Below are positions 2,681 to 64,000 of a stretch of 64,000 nt of DNA, piece after piece (the stretch's first letter is position 1; the number at the start of each line of letters is the position of its first letter). This DNA is from Limnospira fusiformis SAG 85.79. Its GTDB lineage: Bacteria > Cyanobacteriota > Cyanobacteriia > Cyanobacteriales > Microcoleaceae. The position numbers and the translations under genes are program-made. The notes beneath the pieces were generated by a model, which saw only the letters and a program-made list of their open reading frames with translations, was not told the DNA's origin and did not search any database. Location: assembly GCF_012516315.1 (NCBI RefSeq), contig NZ_CP051185.1, positions 2,655,403-2,719,402 on the forward strand. The letters run 5' to 3'.

Positions 2681-2738
2681 ATTCTAGCGATATAACTGCT
2701 ATAATTGGGGAGAAACTGTCTTCTACTGGTTTAGACCT
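2681..2738 (+). promoter_or_regulatory. Conserved 58-bp spacer with extended -10 promoter (representative)
   Basis: The spacer between units 2 and 3 contains TGCTATAAT at 2697-2705, an extended -10 box (TGN-TATAAT). No clear -35 is present at the usual distance. The same spacer precedes every other full unit, with rare substitutions (for example at about 8343 and 10281, ACTATCTT for ACTGTCTT). No strong Shine-Dalgarno lies just before the ATG. Each gene could therefore be transcribed on its own rather than from one operon promoter (inference). Confidence 0.55.
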
Positions 2739-3680: not shown

Positions 3681-3738
3681 ATTCTAGCGATATAACTGCT
3701 ATAATTGGGGAGAAACTGTCTTCTACTGGTTTAGACCT

Positions 3739-4534: not shown

Positions 4535-4592
4535 ATTCTAGCGATATAACTGCTATAATTGGGGAGAAACTGTCTTCTACTGGTTTAGACCT

Positions 4593-5474: not shown

Positions 5475-5532
5475 ATTCTAGCGATATAACTGCTATAATT
5501 GGGGAGAAACTGTCTTCTACTGGTTTAGACCT

Positions 5533-6453: not shown

Positions 6454-6511
6454 ATTCTAGCGATATAACTGCTATAATTGGGGAGAAACTGTCTTCTACT
6501 GGTTTAGACCT

Positions 6512-7411: not shown

Positions 7412-7469
7412 ATTCTAGCGATATAACTGCTATAATTGGGGAGAAACTGTCTTCTACTGGTTTAGACCT

Positions 7470-8306
7470 ATGGTTTCTATTGACCTTTATAAAAATCTAC
7501 CCACCAGTGATGAACTTCCCGACTCTGATGATACTCCTGTGGATAACGAAGACCAAAACTTTCTCCCCAATTACCTATTATTTCTTCTAGCAATTATCTG
7601 GAAAGACCGCAATGATTGGTATTTCGGTGTAGATATGGGAATTTATCACACCAGCGGGGATAACCCCAGAGTCCCAGTAATTCCTGATGGTTTTCTGACG
7701 GTGGGAGTGAACCGCCGCCGACCAGGTAATAAATCTCGGAAAAGTTATGTGGTCTGGGAAGAAGGGGGAATGGTTCCTCAGTTGGTGTTAGAGGTGGTTT
7801 CCTGGACTCCGGGAAATGAGTATGAGTCCAAAATGGCGATTTATGAAAAGTTGGGGGTACTATACTACGTTATTTATAACCCAGAATATTACCAGCGCGA
7901 TCGCCATCAACCCTTCGAGATTTATCGACAAATTGATGGTAAATACCAGTTACAAACGGGAGAACCCTACTGGCTACCAGAAATCGGTTTAGGAATTGGG
8001 AGAAGTCAAGCTACATTAGGTGGTATTGACCGAGAAATCCTGTCTTGGTTTGACCAAGAGGGGAGACGTTATTTGAGTGCGGAAGAGTTAGCACAGCAGG
8101 CTCAATTAGAAGCACAGCAGGCTCAATTGGAAGCACAGCAGGCTCAATTGGAAGCACAGCAGGCTCAATTGGAAGCACAAAAAGAACGTCAGGCGCGTTT
8201 AGCAGCTATTGCTCAATTAGACAATATAGGATTGACAGCAGAGCAAATTTCTGTAGCATTGGGCTTATCTATCAATGAGGTACGTCAGCAGCTAGAGGAA
8301 TTATAG
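7470..8306 (+). CDS. Uma2 family endonuclease-like protein, unit 8 (4 heptads)
   Basis: 278 residues, SAEEL subtype with four AQLEAQ heptads and a C-terminus ending in EEL instead of EES. Position 7894 reads CCAGCGCGATCGCC, a silent change (CAG for CAA) shared only with unit 9. Units 8 and 9 therefore look like a recent pair. Confidence 0.85.
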   Translation: MVSIDLYKNLPTSDELPDSDDTPVDNEDQNFLPNYLLFLLAIIWKDRNDWYFGVDMGIYHTSGDNPRVPVIPDGFLTVGVNRRRPGNKSRKSYVVWEEGGMVPQLVLEVVSWTPGNEYESKMAIYEKLGVLYYVIYNPEYYQRDRHQPFEIYRQIDGKYQLQTGEPYWLPEIGLGIGRSQATLGGIDREILSWFDQEGRRYLSAEELAQQAQLEAQQAQLEAQQAQLEAQQAQLEAQKERQARLAAIAQLDNIGLTAEQISVALGLSINEVRQQLEEL

Positions 8307-8364
8307 ATTCTAGCGATATAACTGCTATAATTGGGGAGAAACTATCTTCTACTGGTTTAGACCT

Positions 8365-9222
8365 ATGGTTTCTATTGACCTTTATAAAAATCTACCCACC
8401 AGTGATGAACTTCCCGACTCTGATGATACTCCTGTGGATAACGAAGACCAAAACTTTCTCCCCAATTACCTATTATTTCTTCTAGCAATTATCTGGAAAG
8501 ACCGCAATGATTGGTATTTCGGTGTAGATATGGGAATTTATCACACCAGCGGGGATAACCCCAGAGTCCCAGTAATTCCTGATGGTTTTCTGACGGTGGG
8601 AGTGAACCGCCGCCGACCAGGTAATAAATCTCGGAAAAGTTATGTGGTCTGGGAAGAAGGGGGAATGGTTCCTCAGTTGGTGTTAGAGGTGGTTTCCTGG
8701 ACTCCGGGAAATGAGTATGAGTCCAAAATGGCGATTTATGAAAAGTTGGGGGTACTATACTACGTTATTTATAACCCAGAATATTACCAGCGCGATCGCC
8801 ATCAACCCTTCGAGATTTATCGACAAATTGATGGTAAATACCAGTTACAAACGGGAGAACCCTACTGGCTACCAGAAATCGGTTTAGGAATTGGGAGAAG
8901 TCAAGCTACATTAGGTGGTATTGACCGAGAAATCCTGTCTTGGTTTGACCAAGAGGGGAGACGTTATTTGAGTGCGGAAGAGTTAGCACAGCAGGCTCAA
9001 TTGGAAGCACAGCAGGCTCAATTGGAAGCACAGCAGGCTCAATTGGAAGCACAACAGGCTCAATTGGAAGCACAGCAGGCTCAATTGGAAGCACAAAAAG
9101 AACGTCAGGCGCGTTTAGCAGCTATTGCTCAATTAGACAATATAGGATTGACAGTACAGCAAATTTCTGTAGCATTGGGGTTATCTATCAATGAGGTACG
9201 TCAGCAGCTAGAGGAATTATAG
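8365..9222 (+). CDS. Uma2 family endonuclease-like protein, unit 9 (5 heptads)
   Basis: 285 residues, SAEEL subtype, five heptads. The C-terminal helical motif reads GLTVQQISVALGL, where most copies have GLTAEQISVALGL; unit 11 shares the VQQ form and unit 0 has remnants of it. Shared minor alleles among non-adjacent units argue for gene conversion across the array. Confidence 0.85.
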   Translation: MVSIDLYKNLPTSDELPDSDDTPVDNEDQNFLPNYLLFLLAIIWKDRNDWYFGVDMGIYHTSGDNPRVPVIPDGFLTVGVNRRRPGNKSRKSYVVWEEGGMVPQLVLEVVSWTPGNEYESKMAIYEKLGVLYYVIYNPEYYQRDRHQPFEIYRQIDGKYQLQTGEPYWLPEIGLGIGRSQATLGGIDREILSWFDQEGRRYLSAEELAQQAQLEAQQAQLEAQQAQLEAQQAQLEAQQAQLEAQKERQARLAAIAQLDNIGLTVQQISVALGLSINEVRQQLEEL

Positions 9223-9280
9223 ATTCTAGCGATATAACTGCTATAATTGGGGAGAAACTGTCTTCTACTGGTTTAGACCT

Positions 9281-10243
9281 ATGGTTTCTATTGACCTTTA
9301 TAAAAATCTACCCACCAGTGATGAACTTCCCGACTCTGATGATACTCCTGTGGATAACGAAGACCAAAACTTTCTCCCCAATTACCTATTATTTCTTCTA
9401 GCAATTATCTGGAAAGACCGCAATGATTGGTATTTCGGTGTAGATATGGGAATTTATCACACCAGCGGGGATAACCCCAGAGTCCCAGTAATTCCTGATG
9501 GTTTTCTGACGGTGGGAGTGAACCGCCGCCGACCAGGTAATAAATCTCGGAAAAGTTATGTGGTCTGGGAAGAAGGGGGAATGGTTCCTCAGTTGGTGTT
9601 AGAGGTGGTTTCCTGGACTCCGGGAAATGAGTATGAGTCCAAAATGGCGATTTATGAAAAGTTGGGGGTACTATACTACGTTATTTATAACCCAGAATAT
9701 TACCAACGCGATCGCCATCAACCCTTCGAGATTTATCGACAAATTGATGGTAAATACCAGTTACAAACGGGAGAACCCTACTGGCTACCAGAAATCGGTT
9801 TAGGAATTGGGAGAAGTCAAGCTACATTAGGTGGTATTGACCGAGAAATCCTGTCTTGGTTTGACCAAGAGGGGAGACGTTATTTGAGCTCCGAAGAGTT
9901 AGCACAGCAGGCTCAATTGGAAGTACAGCAGGCTCAATTGGAAGCACAGCAGGCTCAATTGGAAGCACAGCAGGCTCAATTAGAAGCACAGCAGGCTCAA
10001 TTAGAAGCACAGCAGGCTCAATTGGAAGTACAGCAGGCTCAATTGGAAGTACAGCAGGCTCAAGTGGAAGCACAGCAGGCTCAATTGGAAGCACAGCAGG
10101 CTCAATTGGAAGCACAAAAAGAACGTCAGGCGCGTTTAGCAGCTATTGCTCAATTAGACAATATAGGATTGACAGCAGAGCAAATTTCTGTAGCATTGGG
10201 CTTATCTATCAATGAGGTACGTCAGCAGCTAGAGGAATTATAG
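9281..10243 (+). CDS. Uma2 family endonuclease-like protein, unit 10 (10 heptads)
   Basis: 320 residues, the longest copy, SSEEL subtype. Ten heptads with EV at the first, seventh and eighth positions and one AQVEAQQ. The coiled coil alone spans about 70 residues. The ending is EEL, as in units 8 and 9. Confidence 0.85.
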   Translation: MVSIDLYKNLPTSDELPDSDDTPVDNEDQNFLPNYLLFLLAIIWKDRNDWYFGVDMGIYHTSGDNPRVPVIPDGFLTVGVNRRRPGNKSRKSYVVWEEGGMVPQLVLEVVSWTPGNEYESKMAIYEKLGVLYYVIYNPEYYQRDRHQPFEIYRQIDGKYQLQTGEPYWLPEIGLGIGRSQATLGGIDREILSWFDQEGRRYLSSEELAQQAQLEVQQAQLEAQQAQLEAQQAQLEAQQAQLEAQQAQLEVQQAQLEVQQAQVEAQQAQLEAQQAQLEAQKERQARLAAIAQLDNIGLTAEQISVALGLSINEVRQQLEEL

Positions 10244-10301
10244 ATTCTAGCGATATAACTGCTATAATTGGGGAGAAACTATCTTCTACTGGTTTAGACC
10301 T

Positions 10302-11075
10302 ATGGTTTCTATTGACCTTTATAAAAATCTACCCACCAGTGATGAACTTCCCGACTCTGATGATACTCCTGTGGATAACGAAGACCAAAACTTTCTCCCC
10401 AATTACCTATTATTTCTTCTAGCAATTATCTGGAAAGACCGCAATGATTGGTATTTCGGTGTAGATATGGGAATTTATCACACCAGCGGGGATAACCCCA
10501 GAGTCCCAGTAATTCCTGATGGTTTTCTGACGGTGGGAGTGAACCGCCGCCGACCAGGTAATAAATCTCGGAAAAGTTATGTGGTCTGGGAAGAAGGGGG
10601 AATGGTTCCTCAGTTGGTGTTAGAGGTGGTTTCCTGGACTCCGGGAAATGAGTATGAGTCCAAAATGGCGATTTATGAAAAGTTGGGGGTACTATACTAC
10701 GTTATTTATAACCCAGAATATTACCAACGCGATCGCCATCAACCCTTCGAGATTTATCGACAAATTGATGGTAAATACCAGTTACAAACGGGAGAACCCT
10801 ACTGGCTACCAGAAATCGGTTTAGGAATTGGGAGAAGTCAAGCTACATTAGGTGGTATTGACCGAGAAATCCTGTCTTGGTTTGACCAAGAGGGGAGACG
10901 TTATTTGAGCTCCGAAGAGTTAGCACAGCAGGCTCAATTGGAAGCACAAAAAGAACGTCAGGCTCGTTTAGCGGCTATTGCTCAATTAGACAATATGGGA
11001 TTAACAGTACAGCAAATTTCTGTAGCATTGGGGTTATCTGTAGAGGTGGTACGTCAGCGGCTAGAGGAATCATAG
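10302..11075 (+). CDS. Uma2 family endonuclease-like protein, unit 11 (1 heptad, array end)
   Basis: 257 residues, the shortest intact copy, with one AQLEAQ heptad. Its 3' end is the most diverged: LDNMGLTVQQISVALGLSVEVVRQRLEES, with extra substitutions around 10965-11070. Terminal units of homogenised arrays usually escape conversion, so this end may be closest to the ancestral gene (inference). The next gene, fumC, converges on it with a 32-bp gap. Confidence 0.85.
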   Translation: MVSIDLYKNLPTSDELPDSDDTPVDNEDQNFLPNYLLFLLAIIWKDRNDWYFGVDMGIYHTSGDNPRVPVIPDGFLTVGVNRRRPGNKSRKSYVVWEEGGMVPQLVLEVVSWTPGNEYESKMAIYEKLGVLYYVIYNPEYYQRDRHQPFEIYRQIDGKYQLQTGEPYWLPEIGLGIGRSQATLGGIDREILSWFDQEGRRYLSSEELAQQAQLEAQKERQARLAAIAQLDNMGLTVQQISVALGLSVEVVRQRLEES

Positions 11076-50195: not shown

Positions 50196-52731
50196 GTGCG
50201 AGACGTTTAGGAGTGAAATAGGGATGCAATGCCCGAAATAGCCTCCTAGTGGGACTTCCATCCCTTGGTGGAATATAAGGGATTCACATCCCTGACCATC
50301 CCATAACTGTTTATATGTCCCGATGCTTGGAGAAATCTGAGCAAGGCAGGGGACTCAAGGTCATAAACAAACTGAGAAATCAGGGAGTAGAGAGTAAAGG
50401 TGATAGCCACCCCCAGTTTCAGGATACACAACCTTGGGATTGAAGCGGGGAACGGAAGGCGTGAAGTAGAACCTACTACCAAATGCGACCACTGCCAACC
50501 ATCCATGACTAGGGAAACCGAATGTCTGGCTTGAACCATCGTAATTATACAGTAGCGAAATAGGTTGATACGCTGCGCTCAAAAGAGCAAGGGGAAAAGT
50601 AGAGTCTTCTATATGACATCTACACAGACCTTTAAAGTACCCCGGTGGAGAGGACAAGTCTAAAGATGGAATGCCCATATAAACGGAACGTTTTAAGTCC
50701 TCCTAGACTCTAATTATCTGGTCGAGATATTAGTAGGAATAAGTGTAACCGCAAGTCTTAGAGGATGTGAGATGTGACCAGAAGCCAACGCCTTATTGTA
50801 ATGATAAGGATATGCAGACGGGTCACGGTTTGATTGTAAAGAATAGAGTCTAGTAGGAGTTACTATGACGAAAGCGAGTTCAAAGAAAGGTTTTGAGAAA
50901 TCAAAGCCAATCAAGACGTGCGTTTGTATGGAAACAAATTCCCTGGGCAAAAGTTCAGAGAAAAGTTTTCAAGCTCCAAAAGAGGATATTTCAAGCAGCT
51001 AAGTCGGGACAAAATGCAAAGGTTAGAAGGTGGCAACGTCTATTGGTGAAATCATATTATGCCCGGCTCCTAGCAGTGCGGCGAGTAACCCAAGACAATC
51101 AAGGCAAGAAAACAGCCGGTGTTGATGGAATGAGAGCAATCTCACCAAGGCAAAGGTTTGAAATTGTTGAGAGCATTAAGGGAAATTTCAAAGCAAAACC
51201 ACTGCGACGGGTGTGGATTCCAAAACCTGGTAGGGATGAAAAACGCCCTCTAGGAATACCCACAATCCAAGATAGAGCCAGGCAAGCCTTGGTTAAGTCG
51301 GCACTCGAACCTGAATGGGAATCGAGATTTGAAAGCACAAGCTACGGGTTTAGACCGGGCAGGTCAGCCCACGACGCAATAACACGAATTTACCAGGGTA
51401 TCAACAAAAGTGAATATTACGTGTTAGATGCAGACATAGCAAAATGCTCTTACCGTGAACCATGAATACCTACTGACCCAAATTCATTGTCCAAGCAGTC
51501 TAAAGAGAGACCTGAAACAATGGCTCAAAGCGGGCGTGCTAGATAACGGTGTATTCGAGGATACAGAAGCAGGGACACCCCAAGGAGGGGTCATAAGTCC
51601 ACTCCTAGCCAACATCGCACTGGATGGCATGGTTAGGTTAATTGAAACAATGTATCCTAAAAAGAAAAACGTGGCTCAAGCCACAATAATCAGATACGCC
51701 GATGATTTTGTAGTAAGATCTCCATCACTAGAAATCATTGAACAGTGCAAAACTGCAATCTCCGAATGGTTAAAACCTGTAGGATTAGAGATTAAACCTG
51801 AAAAGACTCGAATCTGCCATACGCTCAAGCCTATTGAGTATGATGGTAAAACAGAAGAGCCCGGGTTCGATTTTCTGTGATTCAATATCAGGCAATATCC
51901 GGCAGGAAGATATAAATCTGGAAAAACAGGTGGGGCAGCAAGCCGATTAATCGGTCATAAAACCCACATTAAACCCAGCAGCAAAGCAGTTAAAGCCCAT
52001 ACAGAAGTGATTAAGGGTGTAATCAAACAACATAAAACCGCACCCCAATCAGCCCTGATTAGCAAACTAAACCCAATCATAAGGGGATGGTCGAACTACT
52101 ATTCAAGGGTAGTCTCAACAGAGACATTCGTTAAACTAGATAAGACAATCTGGTTAATGTTACGGGCATGGACAGTTTCAAGATGCGGAAAGGCAAGTCA
52201 TGAAAAGTTAAGAAACTACTTCCACAAGGGAACGGTTAAACTTAGCAATGGGAAAGAACGGCATGAAACTTGGCTATTCAAAGCAAAAGATGGATTTCAA
52301 CTATGGAAACATAGCTGGACCCTGATTGTCAGACACACCCTAGTGCGCCCCGACGCGACACCATACGACGGAAACTGGACTTACTGGGCAACCAGGAAAG
52401 GACAAGCAATCGACACGCCAACAAGGGTAGCTAAACTACTCAAAAAACAAAAAGGCAAATGCGCCTGGTGTGGACAATACTTTACCCCATCAGACTTAGT
52501 TGAAGTAGACCACATTATACCTCGAAACCACGGTGGAAAGGATGAATATAAGAATCTTCAACTACTGCACCGCCACTGTCACGATGATAAGACGGCGTTA
52601 GACAACGCCAACGCTGTATCCCTAACAATGGAGCAATCAGACTAGGAGCCGTATGATGGGAAACTATCACGTACGGTTTTGAATGGGAGGGGATGGAGGT
52701 GACTTCATTCTCGACCCCTAATCTATCCTGA
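50196..52731 (+). mobile_element. Group II intron with degenerate maturase ORF
   Basis: The 5' end GTGCGAGACG (50196) fits the group II GUGYG consensus. The 0.67-kb leader (50196-50864) should hold RNA domains I-III. Domain V is recognisable at about 52646-52680 (GAGCCGTATGATGGGAAACT onward), then a domain VI-like stem (GGGG...CCCC) before about 52730. The exact 3' splice point is uncertain by a few bases. The upstream exon sequence is the arm repeat of the second recombinase module. Transposition and splicing proteins would have to come from elsewhere. Confidence 0.8.
50865..52645 (+). pseudogene. Group II intron reverse transcriptase/maturase with HNH domain (three lesions)
   Basis: ATG at 50865 with Shine-Dalgarno TAGGAG starts MTKASSKKGFEKSKP, then the frame must shift to reach WKQIPWAKVQRKVFKLQ (first lesion, about 50905-50935). 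Reverse transcriptase blocks follow: VRRVTQDNQGKKTAGVDG, YGFRPGRSAHDA, AGTPQGGVISPLLANIALDG and the catalytic RYADDFVV. A second frameshift at about 51448-51462 follows DADIAKC (about two bases missing), and a TGA at 51878-51880 replaces Gly in DFL-G-FNIR. The maturase region (PIIRGWSNYYS) and a C-terminal HNH nuclease (CAWCGQYF, VEVDHIIPRNHGG, HRHCHD) complete it. Not functional as it stands. Confidence 0.85.
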
Positions 52732-52739
52732 TGACTTCA

Positions 52740-52859
52740 AGTCCCGGGTTCCGCATTGGGAAAGAAACCCGGTTTGGCTGGGGGAAGTTGGGTTACGCTG
52801 CGCTTCACCCAACCTACATACTGGGGGAAGTTGGGTTGCGCTGCGCTTCACCCAACCTA
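52740..52859. repeat. Dispersed hairpin repeats after the intron
   Basis: Two copies of a short imperfect palindromic repeat, core GAAGTTGGGTT..CGCTGCGC and TTCACCCAACCTAC, abut the 3' end of the first kinase gene. The same family recurs at 54720-55310, 57370-57415, 59300-59640 and 61495-61720. Confidence 0.8.
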
Positions 52860-54645
52860 CTAAAGCGCACAGGCAACCCGAAAACCGCAGCTGAAGTAGA
52901 GGAGGTCTGAGCCGCCCCTGTCGCGGTTGGCACAACGGCAGACTACTGGATTGAAGAGCCACGAACCGCCACGCAGCACCCTTCTTTCTTGGCTTTCCAA
53001 AAAGTTGACTAAATATTCAATAGGTTTTTGATAACGAATATCGTTGTCATAATCCCACACACCACCATCCGAAGGCGCACCATTGTAGCTATCATGCCAG
53101 GGGTCAGCGCACCATTCCGAAACATTTCCGTGGATATCATACAAGCCAAAGGCGTTGGCGTTTTGAAACTGACCGACGGGGGTGGTTTGTCCGCGGTAGG
53201 CTCCCAGGGGTCCTGAGCTATAGGTGTGGTTGCCATCGTAGTTGGCGAGGTCCGTCGTCAGGGTATCACCGACGTGAAAGGGGCTAGTGGTTCCGGCGCG
53301 GGCTGCATATTCCCACTCCGCTTCACTGGGTAATCGGTAGGGTTTGCCGATTCTCTTCGAGAGGCGATCGCACCACTCCATTACATCATACCATGCAACC
53401 GATTCAACGGGAAGATTTAATCCTTTAAAAGCTGAGGGGTCTGGGTTCAGGTCCCGTTGGAGTTTGGGGAAACTAGCCACTTGTCGCCATTGTGCTTGGG
53501 TAACGGGATATTTCCCCATGAGGAAGGGTTTAATCGTGACTTGGTGTTGGGGTCTTTCCTTATTTAGTGAACTTCCAGCTTCACCACTCGGCGCACCCAT
53601 TTTAAAGGTTCCCCCCGGAATTTTTACCATCTCCAGAGTCACCCCATTTCCCAGGTCTTCGATAATACATTCAGCCTGACCGCGACTGCGGTTAATTTCT
53701 TGTCCCTTTGAATTGACCGTAACGATGTCAAATTCAAACTTCTGGGTTGGGGGTTTTTGACCATCAGAAGATGGCTGTAAATCTTCCAAAACTTCGGCTA
53801 CAGATTGATAGCGTTTTTTAAAGACTGTCTCAACCAAACGGTCTAAGATTTTACCTAATTTATCACTCACCTGATTGCCATTTAAATGCTCACGCCACAC
53901 CCATTGTGCTTCTAAGGGGTCATATAAATTCGACGGACTCACTTGGGTTAGCAGGTATAAACAAGTCACCCCTAAACTATATAAATCACTCCCATATTGA
54001 GCTTTTCCCATAGCTTGTTCCGGGGCGCAATATGCCGCCGAACCGATAACCGTTCCGGTGACGCTAAGAGATGTGCGCTGCACCTGTTTAGATGCTCCAA
54101 AATCCACTAGGACTAACTTGTTATCACTGGCGCGTCTAATGATGTTTTCGGGTTTAATATCCCGGTAAATTACTTGATTTTGGTGAACGAAATCCACAAC
54201 TGGCAATAAATCCTCTAGCAGCGAAATGATTAGATTTTCGGTAAAAGCGCCTTGATTATCTAACTCCTGTTTTAGGGTGTTTCCGGCGATAAATTCCTGA
54301 ACTAAATATTGACGGCTATCAGCGGTAAAATAAGCCAAAAGTCCCGGGATTTGGGAATGTTTGCCGAGGAGTTCTAAACGTTGGGCTTCTTGGTCGAATA
54401 ATTGGGCGGCTTTTTCTAGGGTAGCGGTTCCTTGCGCCTGGGGAAGGAATTGCTTAATCACACAGGGAGGTTTTAGAAGGTTTGAAGTCATCGACGGCGA
54501 TAAATGTGCGTCCTAAGCCACCTTGTCCAAGGATGCTTTTAGCATAGTAGCGTTCTACCAGTCGGAGTTTACTACCACATTTTTGGCAAAACTGGCAACC
54601 TTTGGGGTTGCTGTGGAGGCAGTCTGGGTTCAGACATTGGCTCAT
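52860..54645 (-). pseudogene. Kinase-FGE fusion gene, copy 1 (frameshifted, degenerate kinase)
   Basis: Same architecture as copy 2. The zinc-ribbon start (MSQCLNPDC, ATG at 54645) and the glycine loop are in one frame; one extra T in GGAGGTTTTAGAAGG (about 54470-54475; copy 2 has GGTTTAG) shifts out before the ATP-binding Lys. The downstream frame is open from 54491 to the end. The catalytic motif reads YRDIKPEN where the other copies have HRDIKPEN, a second sign of decay of the kinase half. The FGE-like domain (GNVSEWCADPWH, VLRGGSW) and the variable end are intact. Confidence 0.85.
52887..52958 (-). other. DGR-type variable region, copy 1
   Basis: The 24 codons between RGGSW and GFRVAC. 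Protein LFNPVVCRCANRDRGG then SDLLYFSC. See copies 2-4: differences fall in the first two bases of NNC codons. Confidence 0.75.
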
Positions 54646-55502
54646 AATCAGGATGGTTATTGATACCTGATTCTACATTACCATAAATGCGGAAAATTAA
54701 CCGGCTTTTTCACAGAAACCCGGTTTCGCCGGGGGAAGTTTGGTTTCGCTGCGCTTCACCCAACCTACATACTACATTACCATAAATGCCGAAAATTAAC
54801 CCGCTTTTTCACAGAAACCTGATTGATCACGGCTGGGGAAGTTTGGTTTCGCTGCGCTTCACCCAACCTACATACTTCACCCAACCTACATACTACATTA
54901 CCATAAATGCCGAAAATTAACCCGCTTTTTCACAGAAACCTGATTGATCACGGCTGGGGAAGTTTGGTTTCGCTGCGCTTCACCCAACCTACATACTTCA
55001 CCCAACCTACATACTACATTACTATAAATGCCGAAAATTAACCCGCTTTTTCACAGAAACCCGGTTTCGCCGGGGGAAGTTTGGTTTCGCTGCGCTTCAC
55101 CCAACCTACATACTACATTACTATAAATGCCGAAAATTAACCCGCTTTTTCACAGAAACCCGGTTTCGCCGGGGGAAGTTTGGTTTCGCTGCGCTTCACC
55201 CAACCTACATACTACATTACTATAAATGACGAAAATTAACCCGCTTTTTCACAGAAACCCGGTTTCGCCGGGGGAAGTTTGGTTTCGCTGCGCTTCACCC
55301 AACCTACATTCTGAATAATCGGTAATTCGGGGCTGGACATCGTTGTTGTTTACACTCGGGCAATTTAAATTTAACATTTCTTTACACACAAATCCAGATT
55401 TATGGTGTAAAATTGGGGCAATATAAAAAATGGCTCGCTGCGATCGCTTAAAAGGCTAAATGGCTAGCAGGGTAAAGGGCAAAACCGCAAAAGCGCTAAG
55501 AG
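54646..55502. repeat. Tandem 100-120-bp noncoding repeats
   Basis: Six units from about 54672, 54773, 54893, 55013, 55113 and 55213. Each has CATTACCATAAATGC, GAAAATTAACC, GCTTTTTCACAGAAACC and the dispersed hairpin TTTCGCTGCGCTTCACCC. The first unit is the normal upstream region of a kinase gene; the same leader occurs once upstream of copies 2, 3 and 4. The array thus seems to be an amplified promoter/leader segment. 55320-55502 shows only AT-rich sequence and a GCGATCGC site, no gene. Confidence 0.8.
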
Positions 55503-57290
55503 CTAAGAGTCTGGGGGGGCACAAGCCACCCGAAAACCGTAGTTGCTGCCGAGGAAGTCCGGGACGAGCCAGTGGCGGAAGGCACAACGGCAGTTTCCGG
55601 GATGGCTGCTCCACGAACCGCCGCGCAGCACGCGCCTTTCTTCGTTTTTCAAAAGATTGACTAAACGTTCAACAGGGTTTTGAGAAGGATTATCGTTACC
55701 ATCCCACACACCACCATCCGAGGGCGCACCAGTGTAGCTGTCGTGCCAGGGGTCAGCACACCACTCCCAAACATTCCCGTGGATACCATACAAGCCAAAG
55801 GCGTTGGCGTGTCGAAATTTGCCGACGGGGGTGGTTTGTTCGCGGTAGGCTCCCTTCGGTCCCGAGCTATAGGTGTAGTTGCCATTGTAGTTGGCGAGAC
55901 CCGTCGTCAGCGTATCACCGACGTGAAAGGGGCTAGTGGTTCCGGCGCGGGCTGCATATTCCCACTCGGCTTCACTGGGCAATCGGTAGGGTTTGCCGAT
56001 TCTTTTCGAGAGGCGGGCGCACCACTCGATTACATAATACCATGAAACTCTTTCAACGGGAAGATTTAATCCTTTAAATCTTGAGGGGTCTAGGCTCAGG
56101 TCCCGTTGGAGTTTGGGGAAACTAGCCACTTGTCGCCATTGTTCTTGGGTAACCGGATATTTCCCCATGAGGAAGGGTTTAATCGTGACTCGATGTTGGG
56201 GTCTTTCAGTATTAGAACTTCCAGCTTCACCACTCGGCGCACCCATGATAAAGGTTCCCCCCGGAATTAGCACCATCTCCAGGGTTACACCGTTTCCCAG
56301 GTCTTCGATAATACATTCAGCCTGACCGCGACTGCGGTTAATTTTTCGGCCATTTGAGTTGACGGTAACGATGTCAAATTCAAACTTCTGGGTTGGGTTT
56401 TTTTGACCATCAGAAGATGGCTGTAAATCTGCCCAAACTTCGGCTACAGATTGATAGCGTTTTTTAAAGACTGTCTCAACCAAACGGTCTAAGATTTTGC
56501 CTAATTTATCACTCACCTGATTGTCATTTAAATGCTCACGCCACACCCATTGTGCTTCTAAGGGGTCATATAAATCTGACGGACTCACTTGGGTTAGCAG
56601 GTATAAACAAGTCACCCCTAAACTATATAAATCACTCCCATATTGAGCTTTTCCCATAGCTTGTTCCGGGGCGCAATATGCCGCCGAACCGATAACCGTT
56701 CCGGTGACGCTAAGAGATGTGCGCTGCACCTGTTTAGATGCTCCAAAATCCACTAGGACTAACTTGTTATCACTGGCGCGTCTAATGATGTTTTCGGGTT
56801 TAATATCCCGGTGAATTACTTGATTTTGGTGGACGAAATCCAAAACTGGCAATAAATCCTCTAGCAGCGAAATGATTTGATTTTCGGTAAAAGCGCCTTG
56901 ATTATCTAACTCCTGTTGTAGGGTGTTTCCGGCGATAAATTCCTGAACTAAATATTGACGGCTATCAGCGGTAAAATAAGCCAAAAGTTCCGGGATTTGC
57001 GGATGTTTGCCGAGGAGTTCTAAACGTTGGGCTTCTTGGTCGAATAATTGGGCGGCTTTTTGTAGGGTAGCGGTTCCTTGCGCCTGGGGAAGGAATTGCT
57101 TAATCACACAGGGAGGTTTAGAAGGTTTGAAGTCATCGACGGCGAGAAATGTGCGTCCTAAGCCACCTTGTCCAAGGATGCTTTTAGCATAGTAGCGTTC
57201 TACCAGTCGGAGTTTACTACCACATTTTTGGCAAAACTGGCAACCTTTGGGGTTGCTGTGGAGGCAGTCTGGGTTCAGACATTGGCTCAT
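55503..57290 (-). CDS. Ser/Thr kinase - FGE-sulfatase-like fusion, copy 2
   Basis: 595 residues from ATG 57290 (MSQCLNPDC); 13 upstream codons are also open but not shared with the other copies. Domains: zinc ribbon (Cys4, Cys9, Cys20, Cys23); Hanks-type kinase with GQGGLG (about 40), Lys in CVIKQFLP, HRDIKPENI and DFGASKQ; linker with TQKFEFDIVTVNS; C-terminal FGE-sulfatase/C-type-lectin-like domain (VLIPGGTFIMGAPSGEAGSS, YRLPSEAEWEYAARAG, GNVWEWCADPW, RVLRGGSW). Such kinase-FGE fusions in cyanobacteria can be targets of DGRs. The variable end likely binds ligands, and the kinase may signal (inference). Cytoplasmic; no signal peptide. Confidence 0.88.
   Translation of the reverse strand: MSQCLNPDCLHSNPKGCQFCQKCGSKLRLVERYYAKSILGQGGLGRTFLAVDDFKPSKPPCVIKQFLPQAQGTATLQKAAQLFDQEAQRLELLGKHPQIPELLAYFTADSRQYLVQEFIAGNTLQQELDNQGAFTENQIISLLEDLLPVLDFVHQNQVIHRDIKPENIIRRASDNKLVLVDFGASKQVQRTSLSVTGTVIGSAAYCAPEQAMGKAQYGSDLYSLGVTCLYLLTQVSPSDLYDPLEAQWVWREHLNDNQVSDKLGKILDRLVETVFKKRYQSVAEVWADLQPSSDGQKNPTQKFEFDIVTVNSNGRKINRSRGQAECIIEDLGNGVTLEMVLIPGGTFIMGAPSGEAGSSNTERPQHRVTIKPFLMGKYPVTQEQWRQVASFPKLQRDLSLDPSRFKGLNLPVERVSWYYVIEWCARLSKRIGKPYRLPSEAEWEYAARAGTTSPFHVGDTLTTGLANYNGNYTYSSGPKGAYREQTTPVGKFRHANAFGLYGIHGNVWEWCADPWHDSYTGAPSDGGVWDGNDNPSQNPVERLVNLLKNEERRVLRGGSWSSHPGNCRCAFRHWLVPDFLGSNYGFRVACAPPDS
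55539..55610 (-). other. DGR-type variable region, copy 2
   Basis: 24 codons after RGGSW: SSHPGNCRCAFRHWLV then PDFLGSNY. Invariant codons with the other copies are TGC CGT (Cys-Arg), CGC (Arg) and CTC (Leu), all without A; the flanking GGTTTTCGGGT is A-free as well. Confidence 0.8.
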
Positions 57291-57416
57291 AATCAGGATG
57301 GTTATTGATACCTGATTGTACGTTACCATAAATGCCGAAAATTAACCGGCTTTTCCACAGAAACCCGGTTTCGCCGGGGGAAGTTGGGTTTCGCTGCGCT
57401 CCACCCAACCTACATA

Positions 57417-59207
57417 CTACATACTAAGCGCACAGGCTACCCGGAAACCGTAGCTGACGTTGAGATCGCCCGAACCGCCACTGAAGCGGTAGCCAGAACG
57501 GCAGTAGTCAGGATTACCATACCACGAACCGCCGCGCAGCACCTTGGTGTCTTTGCTTATCAAAACGTTTACTAAATCACCAACATATATATGCTGACCA
57601 TCCCACACTCGCCCGTCCGAGGGAGCGCCACCATAGCCTTCGTGCCAGGGGTCAGCGCACCATTCCCAAATATTCCCGTGGATATCATACAAGCCAAAGG
57701 CGTTGGCGTGTTGAAACTGACCGACGGGGGTGGTTTTTTGGTGGTAGACTCCCTTCGGTTCTGAGCTATATGTGCAGTTGCCATTGTAGTTGGCGATGTC
57801 CGTCGTTAGGGTATCACCGACATGAAAGGGGCTATTGGTTCCGGCGCGGGCTGCATATTCCCACTCGGCTTCACTGGGCAATCGGTAGGGTTTGCCCATT
57901 CTTTTCGAGAGTCGGGCACACCACTCGATCGCATCATACCATGAAACTCTTTCAACCGGAAGATTTAATCCTTTAAAATTTGATGGCTCTGGGTAAAGGT
58001 TCCATTTGAGTTTGGGGAAACTAGCCACTTGTCGCCATTGTGCTTGGGTAGCCGGATATTTCCCCATTAGGAAGGGTTCAATAGTGACTCGGTGTAGGGG
58101 TCTTTGATTATTATTACTTCCCGCTTCACTACTCGGCGCACCCATAATAAAGGTTCCCCCCGGAATTTTTACCATCTCCAGAATCACACCATTTCCCAGG
58201 TCTTCGATAATACATTCAGCCTGACCGGGACGGCGGTTGATTTTTTGTCCATTTGAATTGACGGTAACGATGTCAAATTTAAACTTCTGGGTTACCGGTT
58301 GGGGAGTTTGGCGGGTGGGCGGTTTCCCATAATATCGCCGTAAATCTTCCCAAACTTCCTCTACAGATTGATAGCGTTTTTTAAAGACTGTCTCAACCAA
58401 ATGGTCTAATATTTTGCCTAATTTATCACTCACCTGATTGCCATTTAAATGCTCCCGCCACACCCATTTTGATTCTAAGGGGTCATATAAATCTGACGGA
58501 CTGGCTTGGGTTAGCAGATATAAACAAGTCACCCCTAAACTATATAAATCACTCCCATATTGAGGTTTTCCCATAGCCTGTTCTGGGGCGCAATATTCCG
58601 CCGAACCGATAACGGTTCCGGTGACGCTAAGAGATGTGCGCTGCACCTGTTTAGATGCTCCAAAATCCACTAGGACTAACTTGTTATCACTGGCTCGTCT
58701 AATGATGTTTTCGGGTTTAATATCCCGGTGAATCACTTGATGTTTGTGGACAAAATACAAAACTTTCAATAAATCCTTGAGCAGGGAACTGATTTGATTT
58801 TCGGTAAAAGCGCCTTGATTATCTAACTGCTGTTGTAGGGTGTCTCCTTCGATAAATTCCTGAACTAAATATTGACGGTTATCAGCGGTAAAATAAGCCA
58901 AAAGTTCCGGGATTTGGGAATGTTTGCCGAGGAGTTCTAAACGTTGGGCTTCTTGGTCGAATAATTGGGCGGCTTTTTCTAGGGTAGCGGTTCCTTGCGC
59001 CTGGGGAAGGAATTGTTTAATCACACAGGGAGGTTTAGAAGGTTTGAAGTCATCCAGTGCCAGAAATGTGCGTCCGAACCCGCCTTGTCCGAGGATGCTT
59101 TTAGCATAGTAGCGTTCTGCCAGTCGGAGTTTACTGCCACATTTTTGGCAAAACTGGCAATCTTCGGGGTTGCTGTGGAGGCAGTCTGGGTTCAGACATT
59201 GGCTCAT
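57417..59207 (-). CDS. Ser/Thr kinase - FGE-sulfatase-like fusion, copy 3
   Basis: 596 residues, complete. Differs from copy 2 in the linker (RRYYGKPPTRQTPQPVTQKF) and in parts of the kinase (SLLKDLLKVLYFVHKHQVIH). All kinase motifs are kept (GQGGFG, HRDIKPENI, DFGASKQ). The FGE-like half reads MVKIPGGTFIMGAPSSEAGS and GNIWEWCADPWHEG. The end is ALSM instead of AL, adding three codons. It lies between copies 2 and 4 in the same direction, each with its own leader, so they are probably separate transcription units. Confidence 0.9.
   Translation of the reverse strand: MSQCLNPDCLHSNPEDCQFCQKCGSKLRLAERYYAKSILGQGGFGRTFLALDDFKPSKPPCVIKQFLPQAQGTATLEKAAQLFDQEAQRLELLGKHSQIPELLAYFTADNRQYLVQEFIEGDTLQQQLDNQGAFTENQISSLLKDLLKVLYFVHKHQVIHRDIKPENIIRRASDNKLVLVDFGASKQVQRTSLSVTGTVIGSAEYCAPEQAMGKPQYGSDLYSLGVTCLYLLTQASPSDLYDPLESKWVWREHLNGNQVSDKLGKILDHLVETVFKKRYQSVEEVWEDLRRYYGKPPTRQTPQPVTQKFKFDIVTVNSNGQKINRRPGQAECIIEDLGNGVILEMVKIPGGTFIMGAPSSEAGSNNNQRPLHRVTIEPFLMGKYPATQAQWRQVASFPKLKWNLYPEPSNFKGLNLPVERVSWYDAIEWCARLSKRMGKPYRLPSEAEWEYAARAGTNSPFHVGDTLTTDIANYNGNCTYSSEPKGVYHQKTTPVGQFQHANAFGLYDIHGNIWEWCADPWHEGYGGAPSDGRVWDGQHIYVGDLVNVLISKDTKVLRGGSWYGNPDYCRSGYRFSGGSGDLNVSYGFRVACALSM
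57450..57521 (-). other. DGR-type variable region, copy 3
   Basis: 24 codons after RGGSW: YGNPDYCRSGYRFSGG then SGDLNVSY. This is the only copy with TCT GGC instead of TGT GCC after the Cys-Arg, closer to the CRSANR form I recall for published DGR templates. Confidence 0.8.
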
Positions 59208-59637
59208 AATCAGGATGGTTATTGATACCTGATTCTACATTACCATAAATGCGGAAAATTAACCGGCTTTTTCACAGAAACCCGGTGGCTCACGGCTGGC
59301 TGGGAAGTTGCGTTTCGCTGCGCTTCACCCAACCTACTAAAGCGCACTGCCACATTTTTGGCAAAACTGGCAATCTTCGGGGTTGCTGTGGAGGCAGTCT
59401 GGGTTCAGACATTGGCTCATAATCAGGGTGGTTATTGATACCTGATTTTACATTACCATAAATGCCGAAAATTAACCCGCTTTTTCACAGAAACCCGGTG
59501 GCTCACGGCTGGCTGGGAAGTTGGGTTTCGCTGCGCTTCACCCAACCTACAATGGGGAAGTTGGGTTTCCCTGCGCTTCACCCAACCTACAATGGGAAAG
59601 TTGGGTTTCCCTGCGCTTCACCCAACCTACTAAAGCG
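59208..59637. other. Leader region with a truncated fifth kinase copy
   Basis: Contains the leader and hairpin repeats and, at 59346-59421, a fragment whose minus strand encodes MSQCLNPDCLHSNPEDCQFC and ends after the zinc ribbon, followed by another leader (59422-59520). This is the N-terminal stub of a further kinase-FGE copy, cut at a hairpin repeat. Three more hairpin repeats follow before copy 4. Confidence 0.75.
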
Positions 59638-61404
59638 CTAAAGCGCACAGGCTACCCGAAAACCGAAGTTGTGGAGGAGGTTGCCCGGGTAGGCACTGTT
59701 GCGGCTGGCACAACGGCAGAATACAGGAAGGTTAGACCATGAACCGCCACGCAGCACTCTCCGGTCTTTGCTTTCCAAAAGTTTGACTAAATTGTCAACA
59801 TCTATATCCTGACTATCCCACACCGTACCATCCGAAGGCGCACCATTGTAGTTGTCGCGCCAGGGGTCAGCGCACCACTCCCAAACGTTCCCGTGGATAT
59901 CATACAAGCCAAAGGCGTTGGCGCTTTGAAACCGACCGACGGGGGTGGTTTTTTTGCGGAAGACTCCCTTGAGTCCTGAGCTATAGCTGTAGTTGCCATC
60001 GTAGTTGGCGAGGTCTGTCGTCAGGGTATCACCGACATGAAAGGGGCTAGTTCTTCCGGCGCGGGCTGCATATTCCCACTCGGCTTCACTCGGTAATCGG
60101 CAGGGTTTGCTGATTACTTTTGAGAGGCGATCGCACCATTCCACCACATCATACCATGAAACTTTTTCAACGGGAAGATTGAATCCTTTAAATCTTGAGG
60201 GGTCTAGGCTCAGGTTTCGTTGGAGTTTGGGGAAACTAGCCACTTGTCGCCATTGTGCTTGGGTAACCGGATATTTCCCCATTAGGAAGGGTTTAATCGT
60301 GACTTGGTGTTGGGGTCTTTCAGCATTAGAACTTCTAGGTTCACCACTCGACGCACCCATAATAAAGGTTCCTCCCGGAATTAGCACCATCTCCAGAGTT
60401 ACACTATTTCCCAGGTCTTCGATAATACATTCAGCCTGACCGGGACGACGGTTAATTTCTCGACCCATTGAATTGACCGTAACGATGTCAAATTTAAACT
60501 TCTGGGTTGGGGGTTTTGGACTATCATCAGATGGCTGTAAATCTGCCCAAACTTGGGCTACAGATTGATAGCGTTTGTTAAACACTGTCTCAACCAAACG
60601 GTCTAAGATTTTGCCTAGTTTCTCACTCAACTGATTGTCATTTAAATGCTCACGCCACACCCATTGTAATTCTAAGGGGTCATATAAATTCGACGGACTC
60701 ACTTGGGTTAGCAGGTATAAACAAGTCACCCCTAAACTATATAAATCACTCCCATATTGAGGTTTTCCCATAGCTTGTTCCGGGGCGCAATATGCCGCCG
60801 AACCGATAACCGTTCCCGTGACGCTAAGAGATGTGCTATGCACCTGTTTAGCCGCTCCAAAATCCACTAGGACTAACTTGTTATCACTGGCGCGTCTAAT
60901 GATGTTTTCGGGTTTAATATCCCGGTGAATTACTTGATTTTGGTGGACGAAATCCAAAACTGGCAATAAATCCTCTAGCAGCGAAATGATTTGATTCTCG
61001 GTAAAAATTCCTTGATTGTCTAACTCCTGTTCTAGGGTGTCTCCTTCGATAAATTCCTGAACTAAATATTGACGGTTATCAGCGGTAAAATAAGCCAAAA
61101 GTTCCGGGATTTGGGAATGTTTGCCGAGGAGTTCTAAACGTTGGGCTTCTTGGTCGAATAATTGGGCGGCTTTTTCTAGGGTAGCGGTTCCTTGCGCCTG
61201 GGGAAGGAATTGTTTAATCACACAGGGAGGTTGAGAAGGTTTGAAGTCATCCACTGCCAGAAATGTGCGTCCGAACCCGCCTTGTCCGAGGATGCTTTTA
61301 GCATAGTAGCGTTCTGCCAGTCGGAGTTTACTGCCACATTTTTGGCAAAACTGGGAACCTTCGGGGTTGCTGTGGAGGCAGTCTGGGTTCAGACATTGGC
61401 TCAT
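59638..61404 (-). CDS. Ser/Thr kinase - FGE-sulfatase-like fusion, copy 4
   Basis: 588 residues, complete, with HRDIKPENI and DFGAAKQ (Ala for Ser after DFGA). The zinc ribbon lacks the third Cys-like position seen in copy 2 (EGSQFC). FGE-like motifs are MVLIPGGTFIMGASSGEPRS, CRLPSEAEWEYAARAG and GNVWEWCADPWRDN. The upstream gene boundary is the leader repeat at 61405-61490. Most likely the same function as copies 2 and 3 with a different ligand-binding surface. Confidence 0.9.
   Translation of the reverse strand: MSQCLNPDCLHSNPEGSQFCQKCGSKLRLAERYYAKSILGQGGFGRTFLAVDDFKPSQPPCVIKQFLPQAQGTATLEKAAQLFDQEAQRLELLGKHSQIPELLAYFTADNRQYLVQEFIEGDTLEQELDNQGIFTENQIISLLEDLLPVLDFVHQNQVIHRDIKPENIIRRASDNKLVLVDFGAAKQVHSTSLSVTGTVIGSAAYCAPEQAMGKPQYGSDLYSLGVTCLYLLTQVSPSNLYDPLELQWVWREHLNDNQLSEKLGKILDRLVETVFNKRYQSVAQVWADLQPSDDSPKPPTQKFKFDIVTVNSMGREINRRPGQAECIIEDLGNSVTLEMVLIPGGTFIMGASSGEPRSSNAERPQHQVTIKPFLMGKYPVTQAQWRQVASFPKLQRNLSLDPSRFKGFNLPVEKVSWYDVVEWCDRLSKVISKPCRLPSEAEWEYAARAGRTSPFHVGDTLTTDLANYDGNYSYSSGLKGVFRKKTTPVGRFQSANAFGLYDIHGNVWEWCADPWRDNYNGAPSDGTVWDSQDIDVDNLVKLLESKDRRVLRGGSWSNLPVFCRCASRNSAYPGNLLHNFGFRVACAL
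59665..59736 (-). other. DGR-type variable region, copy 4
   Basis: 24 codons after RGGSW: SNLPVFCRCASRNSAY then PGNLLHNF. Retains the most AAC codons (four), so it may be the copy closest to the template. Confidence 0.8.
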
Positions 61405-61806
61405 AATCAGGATGGTTATTGATACCTGATTCTACATTACCATAAATGCGGAAAATTAACCGGCTTTTTCACAGAAACCTGATTTATCACGGCTGGGGAA
61501 GTTGGGCCCGGCTGCGCTTCACCCAACCTACAATGGGAAAGTTGGGTTTCCCTGCGCTTCACCCAACCTACAATGGTACACTGGAGAAGTTGGGCCCGGC
61601 TGCGCTTCACCCAACCTACAATGGTACACTGGAGAAGTTGGGCCCGGCTGCGCTTCACCCAACCTACAATGGTAGGGGAAGTTGGGCCCGGCTGCGCTTC
61701 ACCCAACCTACATATTCGCCTAACCTACAATGGGAATGGACAATTGACGACTAATTGGCGATAATCTAGTGGTGAACATTAATCCTCTGCTGGGAAAAGG
61801 CTTTTT
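61405..61806. repeat. Leader plus cluster of dispersed hairpin repeats
   Basis: After one kinase-type leader come five copies of GGAAGTTGGGCCCGGCTGCG or its GGGTTTCCCTGCG variant with TTCACCCAACCTACAATGG, at about 61497-61715. Two units are separated by the same TACACTGGAGAAG link. No gene. The sequence before 61807 supplies a weak Shine-Dalgarno (GGGAAAAGG). Confidence 0.7.
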
Positions 61807-62709
61807 ATGCTTACCCTTGAAACTTTATTTGATGAAGGGTTTTATTTGGCACAAAATCAGGACGTTAAAGATGCGATCGCTAACGGGGTTTTTGAGACCG
61901 CCTTTGAGCATTTTTCTCGCTATGGACAATTTGAAGGACGAACACCTAACCCGATTTTTGATGGGGAATTTTATCTGGCACAAAATCCCGATATTCAGTC
62001 GGAAGTAGAGGCGGGAATTACCACTGCAGCGGCTCATTTTGTTAATATTGGACAAACGGACAACCTCAGCCCTAATCCCTTTTTTGACCCGGTTTTTTAT
62101 CTACAACAAAATCCTTCAGTCGCTCAGGGAGTAGCTAACGGGGAATTTACGGCATTTGAGCATTTTTTCAAAATCGGACAATTTCAGGGGTTGAACCCTA
62201 GCGAGTCCTTTGATACGGAGTTTTATCGCGATCGCAATTTTGATGCTGTTCAGGGTATAGAAGAAGAGATAATTGGCAGCCTTTTTGAGCATTTTTTTCG
62301 GTTTGGTTCGCCGTTGGGGAGGTTGGGCGCACCCCCACAGTTCGGCGATGACCTCAGTAATGCGATCGCTTTAGATACTCTCTTGGGAAGTCGGACTATA
62401 GTTAACTCGGTTACGGATGATAACCCGGTCAATATTTATGAATTTATCATTCCCAATAATGGCAGTGAGTTTAGCCTATTTCTGCACGGTTTAAAAGCGG
62501 ATGCTAATGTGGATTTAATCCAAGATTTTAATCAAAATCAAGCGGTTCAACCTGATGATATTATCGCCTCTTCAAATAACCCGGCTTTGGCTACAGAATC
62601 TATTGAGATTGACCTATTGCCACGGGGAACCTACTTTGTGCGGGTTTCTCAGTTTCAGGGGGAAACTATTTATGCCTTGGAATTGTCAGCCATTCCCCTG
62701 GATATTTGA
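61807..62709 (+). CDS. Repeat protein with C-terminal PPC-like domain
   Basis: 300 residues. Four about 45-residue repeats: LFDEGFYLAQNQDVKDAIAN, IFDGEFYLAQNPDIQSEVEA, FFDPVFYLQQNPSVAQGVAN and SFDTEFYRDRNFDAVQGIEE, each followed by A.EHF...GQFEGR-type sequence. This motif (FDxxFYLxQNPDV ... HFxxxGxxEGRxP) is common in cyanobacterial surface or secreted repeat proteins. The last about 110 residues (DDLSNAIALDTLLGSRTIVN to GTYFVRVSQFQGETIYALEL) look like a pre-peptidase C-terminal (PPC) domain. No N-terminal signal peptide. Its 3' end is duplicated many times downstream. Confidence 0.75.
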   Translation: MLTLETLFDEGFYLAQNQDVKDAIANGVFETAFEHFSRYGQFEGRTPNPIFDGEFYLAQNPDIQSEVEAGITTAAAHFVNIGQTDNLSPNPFFDPVFYLQQNPSVAQGVANGEFTAFEHFFKIGQFQGLNPSESFDTEFYRDRNFDAVQGIEEEIIGSLFEHFFRFGSPLGRLGAPPQFGDDLSNAIALDTLLGSRTIVNSVTDDNPVNIYEFIIPNNGSEFSLFLHGLKADANVDLIQDFNQNQAVQPDDIIASSNNPALATESIEIDLLPRGTYFVRVSQFQGETIYALELSAIPLDI

Positions 62710-64000
62710 ACCCAAGGGGTAACTGATAATTATTAATTATTAATTATTAATTATTAATTATTAATTATTAACGGGGAACCTACTTTGTGCGAGTTTCTCA
62801 GTTTCAGGGGGAAACTATTTATGCCTTGGAATTGTCAGCCATTCCCCTGGATATTTGAACCCAAGGGGTAACTGATAATTGTTAATTATTAATTATTAAT
62901 TATTAATTATTAACGGGGAACCTACTTTGTGCGAGTTTCTCAGTTTCAGGGGGAAACTATTTATGCCTTGGAATTGTCAGCCATTCCCCTGGATATTTGA
63001 ACCCAAGGGGTAACTGATAATTATTAATTATTAATTATTAATTATTAATTATTAATTATTAACGGGGAACCTACTTTGTGGGTTCGGGTTTCTCAGGGGT
63101 TTCAGGGGAAACTATTTATGCCTTGGAATTGTCAGCCATTCCCCTGGATATTTGAACCCAAAAACTGTTAATTATTAATTATTAATTATTAATTATTAAT
63201 TATTAACGGGGAACCTACTTTGTGCGAGTTTCTCAGTTTCAGGGGGAAACTATTTATGCCTTGGAATTGTCAGCCATTCCCCTGGATATTTGAACCCAAG
63301 GGGTAACTGTTAATTATTAATTATTAATTATTAATTATTAATTATTAACGGGGAACCTACTTTGTGCGAGTTTCTCAGTTTCAGGGGGAAACTATTTATG
63401 CCTTGGAATTGTCAGCCATTCCCCTGGATATTTGAACCCAAGGGGTAACTGTTAATTATTAATTATTAATTATTAATTATTAATTATTAACGGGGAACCT
63501 ACTTTGTGCGAGTTTCTCAGTTTCAGGGGGAAACTATTTATGCCTTGAAATTGTCAGCCATTCCCCTGGATATTTGAACCCAAGGGGTAACTGTTAATTA
63601 TTAATTATTAATTATTAATTATTAATTATTAACGGGGAACCTACTTTGTGCGAGTTTCTCAGTTTCAGGGGGAAACTATTTATGCCTTGGAATTGTCAGC
63701 CATTCCCCTGGATATTTGAACCCAAGGGGTAACTGATAATTATTAATTATTAATTATTAATTATTAATTATTAACGGGGAACCTACTTTGTGCGAGTTTC
63801 TCAGTTTCAGGGGGAAACTATTTATGCCTTGGAATTGTCAGCCATTCCCCTGGATATTTGAACCCAAGGGGTAACTGTTAATTATTAATTATTAATTATT
63901 AATTATTAATTATTAATTATTAATTATTAATTATTAATTATTAACGGGGAACCTACTTTGTGCGGGTTTCTCAGTTTCAGGGGGAAACTATTTATGCCTT
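62622..64000 (+). repeat. Minisatellite made of the amplified gene 3' end plus heptanucleotide runs
   Basis: The last about 85 coding bases and stop of the preceding gene (from ACGGGGAACCTACTTTGTGC at 62622), with about 20 following bases, are repeated about ten times with a period of roughly 140-170 bp, to the window end. Units are joined by runs of the heptamer AATTATT (4-10 copies). Each unit keeps the frame GTYFVRVSQFQGETIYALEL to a TGA but has no start codon. One unit (about 63062-63160) is rearranged. No gene is visible in this stretch. Confidence 0.9.

Follow-up and report, generated by a model that had tools for sequence, protein, structure and literature searches.

Adenine-directed variable repeats in kinase-FGE genes of Limnospira fusiformis and Arthrospira sp. 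PCC 9108, two genomes without a detectable diversity-generating retroelement

Kinase-FGE genes and their variable repeats

Four related genes combining a Ser/Thr kinase with an FGE-sulfatase domain were located on the minus strand of a 64-kb stretch of the Limnospira fusiformis SAG 85.79 chromosome (contig NZ_CP051185.1, positions 2,655,403 to 2,719,402; hereafter the window). Near its 3' end each gene carries a variable repeat (VR) of 72 bp, the 24 codons flanked by RGGSW and GFRV, that bears the substitution pattern of a diversity-generating retroelement (DGR), while the components of such an element were absent from the genome. The L. fusiformis genome is closed and consists of a single chromosome of 6,423,694 bp (GCA_012516315.1; PMC8085491). 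Within the genus, two closed genomes were searched, this one (G000) and that of its sister species Arthrospira sp. PCC 9108 (G001; CP066886.1, 6,763,964 bases). The features of the cluster are listed below, where IMH stands for initiation of mutagenic homing, TR for template repeat and CLec for C-type lectin.

52860-54491, minus strand: copy A, kinase-FGE gene of which only the 3' part is open; a 1-bp insertion cuts off the N-terminus (four-cysteine prefix and kinase glycine loop)
52887-52958, minus strand: VR of copy A, same sequence as the VR of gene 1006816-1008693
55503-57329, minus strand: copy B, intact, 608 aa, with four-cysteine prefix, Ser/Thr kinase and FGE-CLec domain
55539-55610, minus strand: VR of copy B, altered relative to the inferred template at 19 of its 31 A sites, with 0 non-A changes
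55502-55511, minus strand: IMH-type motif GACTCTTAGC kept at copy B, 3' end of the VR/TR homology, VR form
57417-59207, minus strand: copy C, kinase-FGE gene without the IMH motif
57450-57521, minus strand: VR of copy C, the oldest-looking one, with nine non-A changes in the aligned region
59638-61404, minus strand: copy D, kinase-FGE gene without the IMH motif
59665-59736, minus strand: VR of copy D, with four non-A changes in the aligned region

The initial annotation of the window had placed four kinase-FGE genes at 52860-61404, with variable stretches of 24 codons near their 3' ends. The positions were correct, but copy A is frameshifted by 1 bp and does not encode an intact kinase. DNA searches extended the family in L. 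fusiformis to 12 members, the four in the window and eight at 1006829-1023054 on the chromosome, 1.7 Mb away; one VR remnant was found besides these, at 5451900. In strain PCC 9108, five copies form a tandem row, another lies at 5162456, and the remnant has an orthologue.

The products of intact copies consist of a four-cysteine prefix followed by a Ser/Thr kinase and, at the C-terminus, a CLec-like FGE-sulfatase domain; the stop codon follows only a few codons past the end of the VR. The FGE domain matched PF03781 (E = 1.3e-54) and showed homology to variable protein 1 of Treponema denticola (PDB 2y3c, E = 5.6e-19), itself a DGR variable protein, and to the FGE-like PvdO (5hha, E = 6.2e-33); the chains of both of these FGE/CLec homologues lack a kinase domain. 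These matches indicate an FGE/CLec fold, a target fold of DGRs, in agreement with the initial annotation. The assignment is sequence-based; an AlphaFold model of copy B had a mean pLDDT of 28.8 and was unusable. The gene bodies showed dN/dS values of 0.44 and 0.49 and are therefore still constrained by purifying selection. Judging from the domain content and the literature on cyanobacterial DGR targets (PMC7517822, PMC10907252), the proteins are probably ligand-sensing or ligand-responsive regulatory kinases.

Adenine-directed substitution pattern

Pairwise, the window copies differed at 35-43% of VR bases vs 8-12% in the gene bodies (p <= 3e-7 for every pair), the contrast between strongly diverged VRs and matching flanks that had first drawn attention to these genes. 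Ten VR codon columns had a C at the third base in all four copies and variable first and second bases: the nine columns that had been named beforehand (6, 11, 13, 15, 18 and 21-24) and codon 10 (GCC/GGC). Among columns varying at the first two bases, this was the case for 10 of 19 in the VR vs 19 of 122 elsewhere in the same genes (Fisher p = 8e-4). At sites corresponding to AAC codons, 43 of the 48 window codons ended in C, vs 15.2 expected from the amino acids and the codon usage of the genes (p = 9e-17). Across all copies, the third base of the inferred AAC codons was C in 136/144 cases in L. fusiformis and 72/72 in PCC 9108, where amino acids and the copies' own codon usage predicted 47 and 22, respectively.

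In place of the cognate template, the templates of relatives served as the standard for adenine sites. Six such templates were read beside DGR reverse transcriptases (RTs) in five relatives (for example RGGSWINNPDNCRSANRDRNTPDNFNNNNGFRV in genome G022 and RGGSWINNPRNCRSAYRNNNNPRNDNNNNGFRL in G032), and they are independent of the copies that define the pattern. Variable sites were concentrated at template-A positions in the four window copies (23/27 vs 11/40 at non-A positions, p = 4e-6), in all 12 L. fusiformis copies (26/27 vs 14/40, p = 2e-7) and in the PCC 9108 copies (23/27 vs 1/40, p = 7e-13). The inferred template reads CGCGGCGGTTCGTGGAACAACAATCCAGAAAACTGCCGTTGTGCCAACCGCAACAGGAACAACCCGGACAACCTCAACAACAACAACGGTTTTCGGGTAGC. 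It was matched perfectly at non-A positions by four L. fusiformis copies, copy B among them, and by every one of the six PCC 9108 copies; copy C was the least clean of the four window copies. Because of this substitution pattern, adenine-site specificity together with retention of the third-base C, we conclude that the VRs were written by the adenine-specific mutagenic retrohoming of a DGR, the origin proposed in the initial annotation.

In the second cluster, the copy at 1017634-1019421 combines the same kind of C-terminus with an N-terminal kinase part unlike that of the others. Its body is only ~65% identical to the other copies, and its VR is a perfect non-A match to the inferred template. 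We read this copy as a probable domain swap upstream of a common VR module.

Search for the retroelement

As the initial annotation had noted, neither a template nor a DGR RT is present in the window, and no other DGR part was found within its 64 kb. It had further proposed that diversification acts in trans, and had suggested a genome-wide search for an AAC-rich template beside an RT and Avd. A search of the L. fusiformis genome with the inferred template returned only the 12 VRs and the remnant, the next match having E = 1.08; in PCC 9108 it gave the six VRs and the remnant, and no template. The 70-bp match at 5451900 was considered as a candidate template and rejected, as it is a VR remnant in a pseudogene, present also in PCC 9108 (at 6514125) and diverged to about the level of its flanks.

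When the loci of the 57 RVT_1 matches in the L. fusiformis genome were read, no DGR RT (IGxxxSQ) was found among them. Where these matched the DGR RTs of relatives at all, identity was at most 33% and the proteins were of the group II intron or RT-Cas1 type; the others were short fragments with neither a DGR motif nor a DGR match. Likewise, the RT of G022 found itself with E = 9e-244 and gave only distant matches in the two Limnospira genomes, all of which were dismissed as group II introns or an RT-Cas1-like fusion. Avd was absent from both genomes and present in seven of the eight others tested (truncated in G012), among them the tested relatives that have an RT. A covariance model (R1) of a structured RNA linked to the templates of relatives matched 14 of 52 family genomes, neither Limnospira genome among them. 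In the positive controls (G022, G065, G066 and G045), the searches recovered RT with E = 1e-172 to 1e-244, RNA with 1e-32 to 1e-35 and Avd with 1e-48 to 1e-54. The best-matching template among 391 genomes of the order differed from the inferred template at 8 non-A positions, and the VR/TR query had no match in viral contigs or phage records.

Template, DGR RT, Avd and template-linked RNA are thus absent from both closed genomes; the initial annotation had regarded the lack of a template or of a DGR-type RT in the genome as speaking against its proposal. The idea of present-day diversification in trans in the L. fusiformis genome is not supported, and we infer that the DGR has been lost from it.

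Two RT-like loci are described here for completeness. Adjoining copy A is an ORF for a group II intron maturase, split into three pieces (window 50893-52645, plus strand); these pieces were rejected as a DGR RT. The best match of the L. fusiformis genome to DGR RTs (27-31% identity; G000:C1:3761983-3762693) belongs to a 687-aa protein with an N-terminal RT and an apparent C-terminal Cas1 domain.

State of the homing sites

In most relatives, the sequence at which the VR/TR homology stops is AGGACTCTT or very similar in the VR vs AG[C/T]ACTCTT in the TR, and their templates mostly read CACTCTTC or similar where the VR form is GACTCTTAGC. This looks like the usual difference between IMH and IMH*. 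The motif GACTCTTAGC was kept in all six PCC 9108 copies and in 3/12 L. fusiformis copies (copy B and two others). From most of the nine L. fusiformis copies without it, it had been removed by short deletions between short repeats (GC in TGTGC...GC, or AGC in GTAGC...AGC). These nine copies can probably no longer receive cDNA, if the motif is the IMH it appears to be. Copies bearing the motif had 0 non-A changes and those without it 0-9 (p = 0.018, small sample), which would fit a scenario where motif loss froze a copy early while the others stayed refreshed to the end.

A dispersed palindromic repeat, GTAGGTTGGGTGAAGCGCAGCGAAACCCAACTT, occurs in the window at 52778-52860, 54754-55309, 59515-59630 and 61552-61712, often directly after VRs, and several of the IMH deletions end beside it. 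Inverted repeats following the VRs, considered as a hairpin of the BPP-1 type, belong to this repeat, and no such hairpin is claimed.

Relatives and plasmids

An RT of the same clade was found in 11 of 52 family species, in some of them interrupted by stops. Relatives with full cassettes have the order target-Avd-RT-TR in G022 and several plasmids. Directly after the template, cyanobacterial relatives have in common a structured, covarying RNA element (L089:6275-6424, L091:6266-6415, L092:9815-9964 and others; alignment A1), for which Rfam contained no family at threshold. Its helix 1 pairs the IMH* side (CACTCTTC) with GAAGAGT, so the bases at the TR/VR boundary help to fold the RNA.

Partial systems were found as well. 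In the near-complete genome G012, from the genus of G022, a VR differed from the G022 template at 14/26 A sites and one non-A site. Beside another VR of this genome, Avd is truncated to aa 1-56 of 117 (G012:C1:3367314-3367481), and no DGR RT, TR or template RNA was found in it. The truncated gene appears to be the scar of a deleted DGR cassette and hence of an independent loss. Genome G011 (L100, 9764-10567) has a template, its RNA and a VR, with no DGR RT at the threshold used, which suggests that a template may outlive its RT.

DGRs of the same clade (RT identity 65-72%; templates 80-84% identical to the inferred one) reside on plasmids from Anabaena sp. 90, Nostoc UHCC 0926, Microcystis FD4 and NIES-2481, and Acaryochloris, and the clade RT also occurs on a Fischerella plasmid. 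Among 72,556 plasmid records, none held a template closer than 84% to the inferred one.

Timing of rewriting and gene conversion

The PCC 9108 copies form one clade, and their bodies are 97-99% identical. In one pair the VRs are identical, and in the others 14-19 of the 27 A sites differed, along with 0-1 sites elsewhere in the VR; the difference between VR and body had p ~1e-16 in two pairs. Near-identical bodies with VR differences almost only at A sites imply that rewriting took place in the PCC 9108 lineage after copy expansion, or after homogenization of the bodies by conversion. DGR activity was thus recent in this lineage. The machinery was then either lost in PCC 9108 and separately in L. 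fusiformis, or it was never a fixed chromosomal element. In the remnant common to both species, VR differences were about equal to flank differences, as would fit a frozen VR.

Copy A and gene 1006816 have identical VRs inside a 928-bp tract of 98% identity, vs 92% in the upstream part, which points to gene conversion across 1.7 Mb. Conversion or duplication spanning a VR was seen twice, here and in two PCC 9108 copies.

Other features of the window

About ten ORFs lie in tandem on the plus strand at 1886-11075, with a spacing of mostly exactly 58 bp. The six tested belong to the Uma2 family (PF05685), and the regular spacing suggests that a single unit, whose C-terminal part varies, was amplified in tandem. 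A 142-bp tandem repeat (62622-63916; nine copies, 95% match) begins within the 3' end of ORF 61807-62709.

Discussion

We consider it probable that the kinase-FGE genes of L. fusiformis are an orphaned, largely frozen repertoire of DGR targets that outlived its retroelement. As the substitution pattern shows, a cyanobacterial DGR composed of Avd, RT and TR rewrote the sensor tips of the 12-member Ser/Thr kinase family: its AAC-rich template was reverse transcribed with errors at A, and the cDNA copied into each VR up to an IMH at the stop codon. The DGR, comprising template, RT, Avd and template-linked RNA, would afterwards have been lost from the genome. Most L. fusiformis copies also lack their presumed IMH, removed by deletions between short repeats, and with that site gone they could probably take up no more cDNA. 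The repertoire would therefore be largely frozen, with purifying selection acting on the bodies and VRs spreading mainly by gene duplication and gene conversion. Several points weigh against this scenario. The clean VRs of PCC 9108 require that the machinery was lost there only recently, in addition to a separate loss in L. fusiformis, and both lineages could be explained with fewer chromosomal losses by a DGR that was mobile and present only intermittently. Furthermore, neither of the two Limnospira clusters showed a deletion scar, and two genomes were the entire sample of the genus.

In an alternative reading, a DGR on a plasmid or other mobile element would act, or would until recently have acted, in trans on the chromosomal targets, and be absent or lost from the sequenced cultures. 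The plasmid-borne DGRs with templates 80-84% identical, the recent activity in PCC 9108 in the absence of a chromosomal machine and the sporadic occurrence of the RT all favour it. We nevertheless regard it as rather unlikely, since a plasmid search with two programs by the authors of the SAG 85.79 genome came up empty (PMC8085491), no closer template turned up among the plasmid records, and the 9/12 L. fusiformis copies without the IMH motif can probably not be rewritten now. That template and RT are present but masked or misassembled is very improbable. Both genomes are indeed highly repetitive (57 RT-domain matches in L. fusiformis and 132 matches to DGR-RT queries in PCC 9108), but two closed genomes sequenced independently of each other lack the same four components, each of which was detected in relatives.

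Explanations that dispense with a DGR fare worse. Positive selection on an exposed FGE-like loop could be invoked because the C-terminal loop is the ligand-binding part of known CLec-fold variable proteins and because pN exceeded pS in the VRs (0.353 vs 0.171). Selection on amino acids, however, does not fix a third-base C across unrelated codons (136/144 and 72/72), nor does it restrict change to the A positions of relatives' templates, and relatives with the same VR layout have TR, Avd and RT alongside; we find this explanation hardly tenable. Gene conversion or shuffling among paralogues has as little to commend it as the origin of VR diversity. The two events spanning a VR are evidence of such exchange or of duplication, but shuffling moves existing variants and cannot make novelty at adenine sites only while non-A positions are kept; its role here is secondary.

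Cyanobacterial DGR variable proteins with a Ser/Thr kinase and a C-terminal CLec domain are known (Vallota-Eastman et al. 2020, PMC7517822). The Limnospira genes resemble them in architecture, C-terminal VR, paralogue families and targets remote from the cassette, and the RT, Avd and TR of relatives look to be of the same clade. However, the genomes surveyed there have DGR components, and remote targets were assigned to a DGR of the same genome, whereas here VR families of 12 and 6 members stand without any DGR. Incomplete or remote DGR loci in Thiohalocapsa PB-PSB1 likewise include targets with missing or disrupted local machinery, for which trans action or past activity was considered (Dore et al. 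2024, PMC10907252); in contrast to Limnospira, which has no DGR RT, that genome has nine DGR loci and retains RTs. The DGR of Bordetella phage BPP-1, with its requirement for an IMH and a hairpin, shares the A-specific mutagenesis of a C-terminal CLec domain and, presumably, a 3' IMH that ends the VR/TR homology (Guo et al. 2011, PMC3240598), but it has a phage target and an intact cassette, while L. fusiformis lacks the machinery and, in most copies, the IMH motif. That the machinery may be discarded after a good variant has arisen was suggested earlier, with one paralogue as the example (PMC7517822).

Two closed genomes that have 12 and 6 VRs and no machinery bear on the fate of DGR targets once they have been diversified. 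In one of them most copies also lack the presumed cis-acting homing site, and these organisms are grown commercially in bulk as food spirulina. The pair of PCC 9108 and SAG 85.79 permits the loss to be dated relative to the rewriting, and surveys that start from the RT overlook such DGR-shaped genes. Tentatively, we raise the possibility that the DGRs of this group are transient visitors, for instance plasmid-borne, which would write a sensor repertoire and leave; their hosts would retain what was written, IMH loss would block further rewriting, variants would pass on by gene conversion, and this course from diversification to fixation would be repeated in several lineages.

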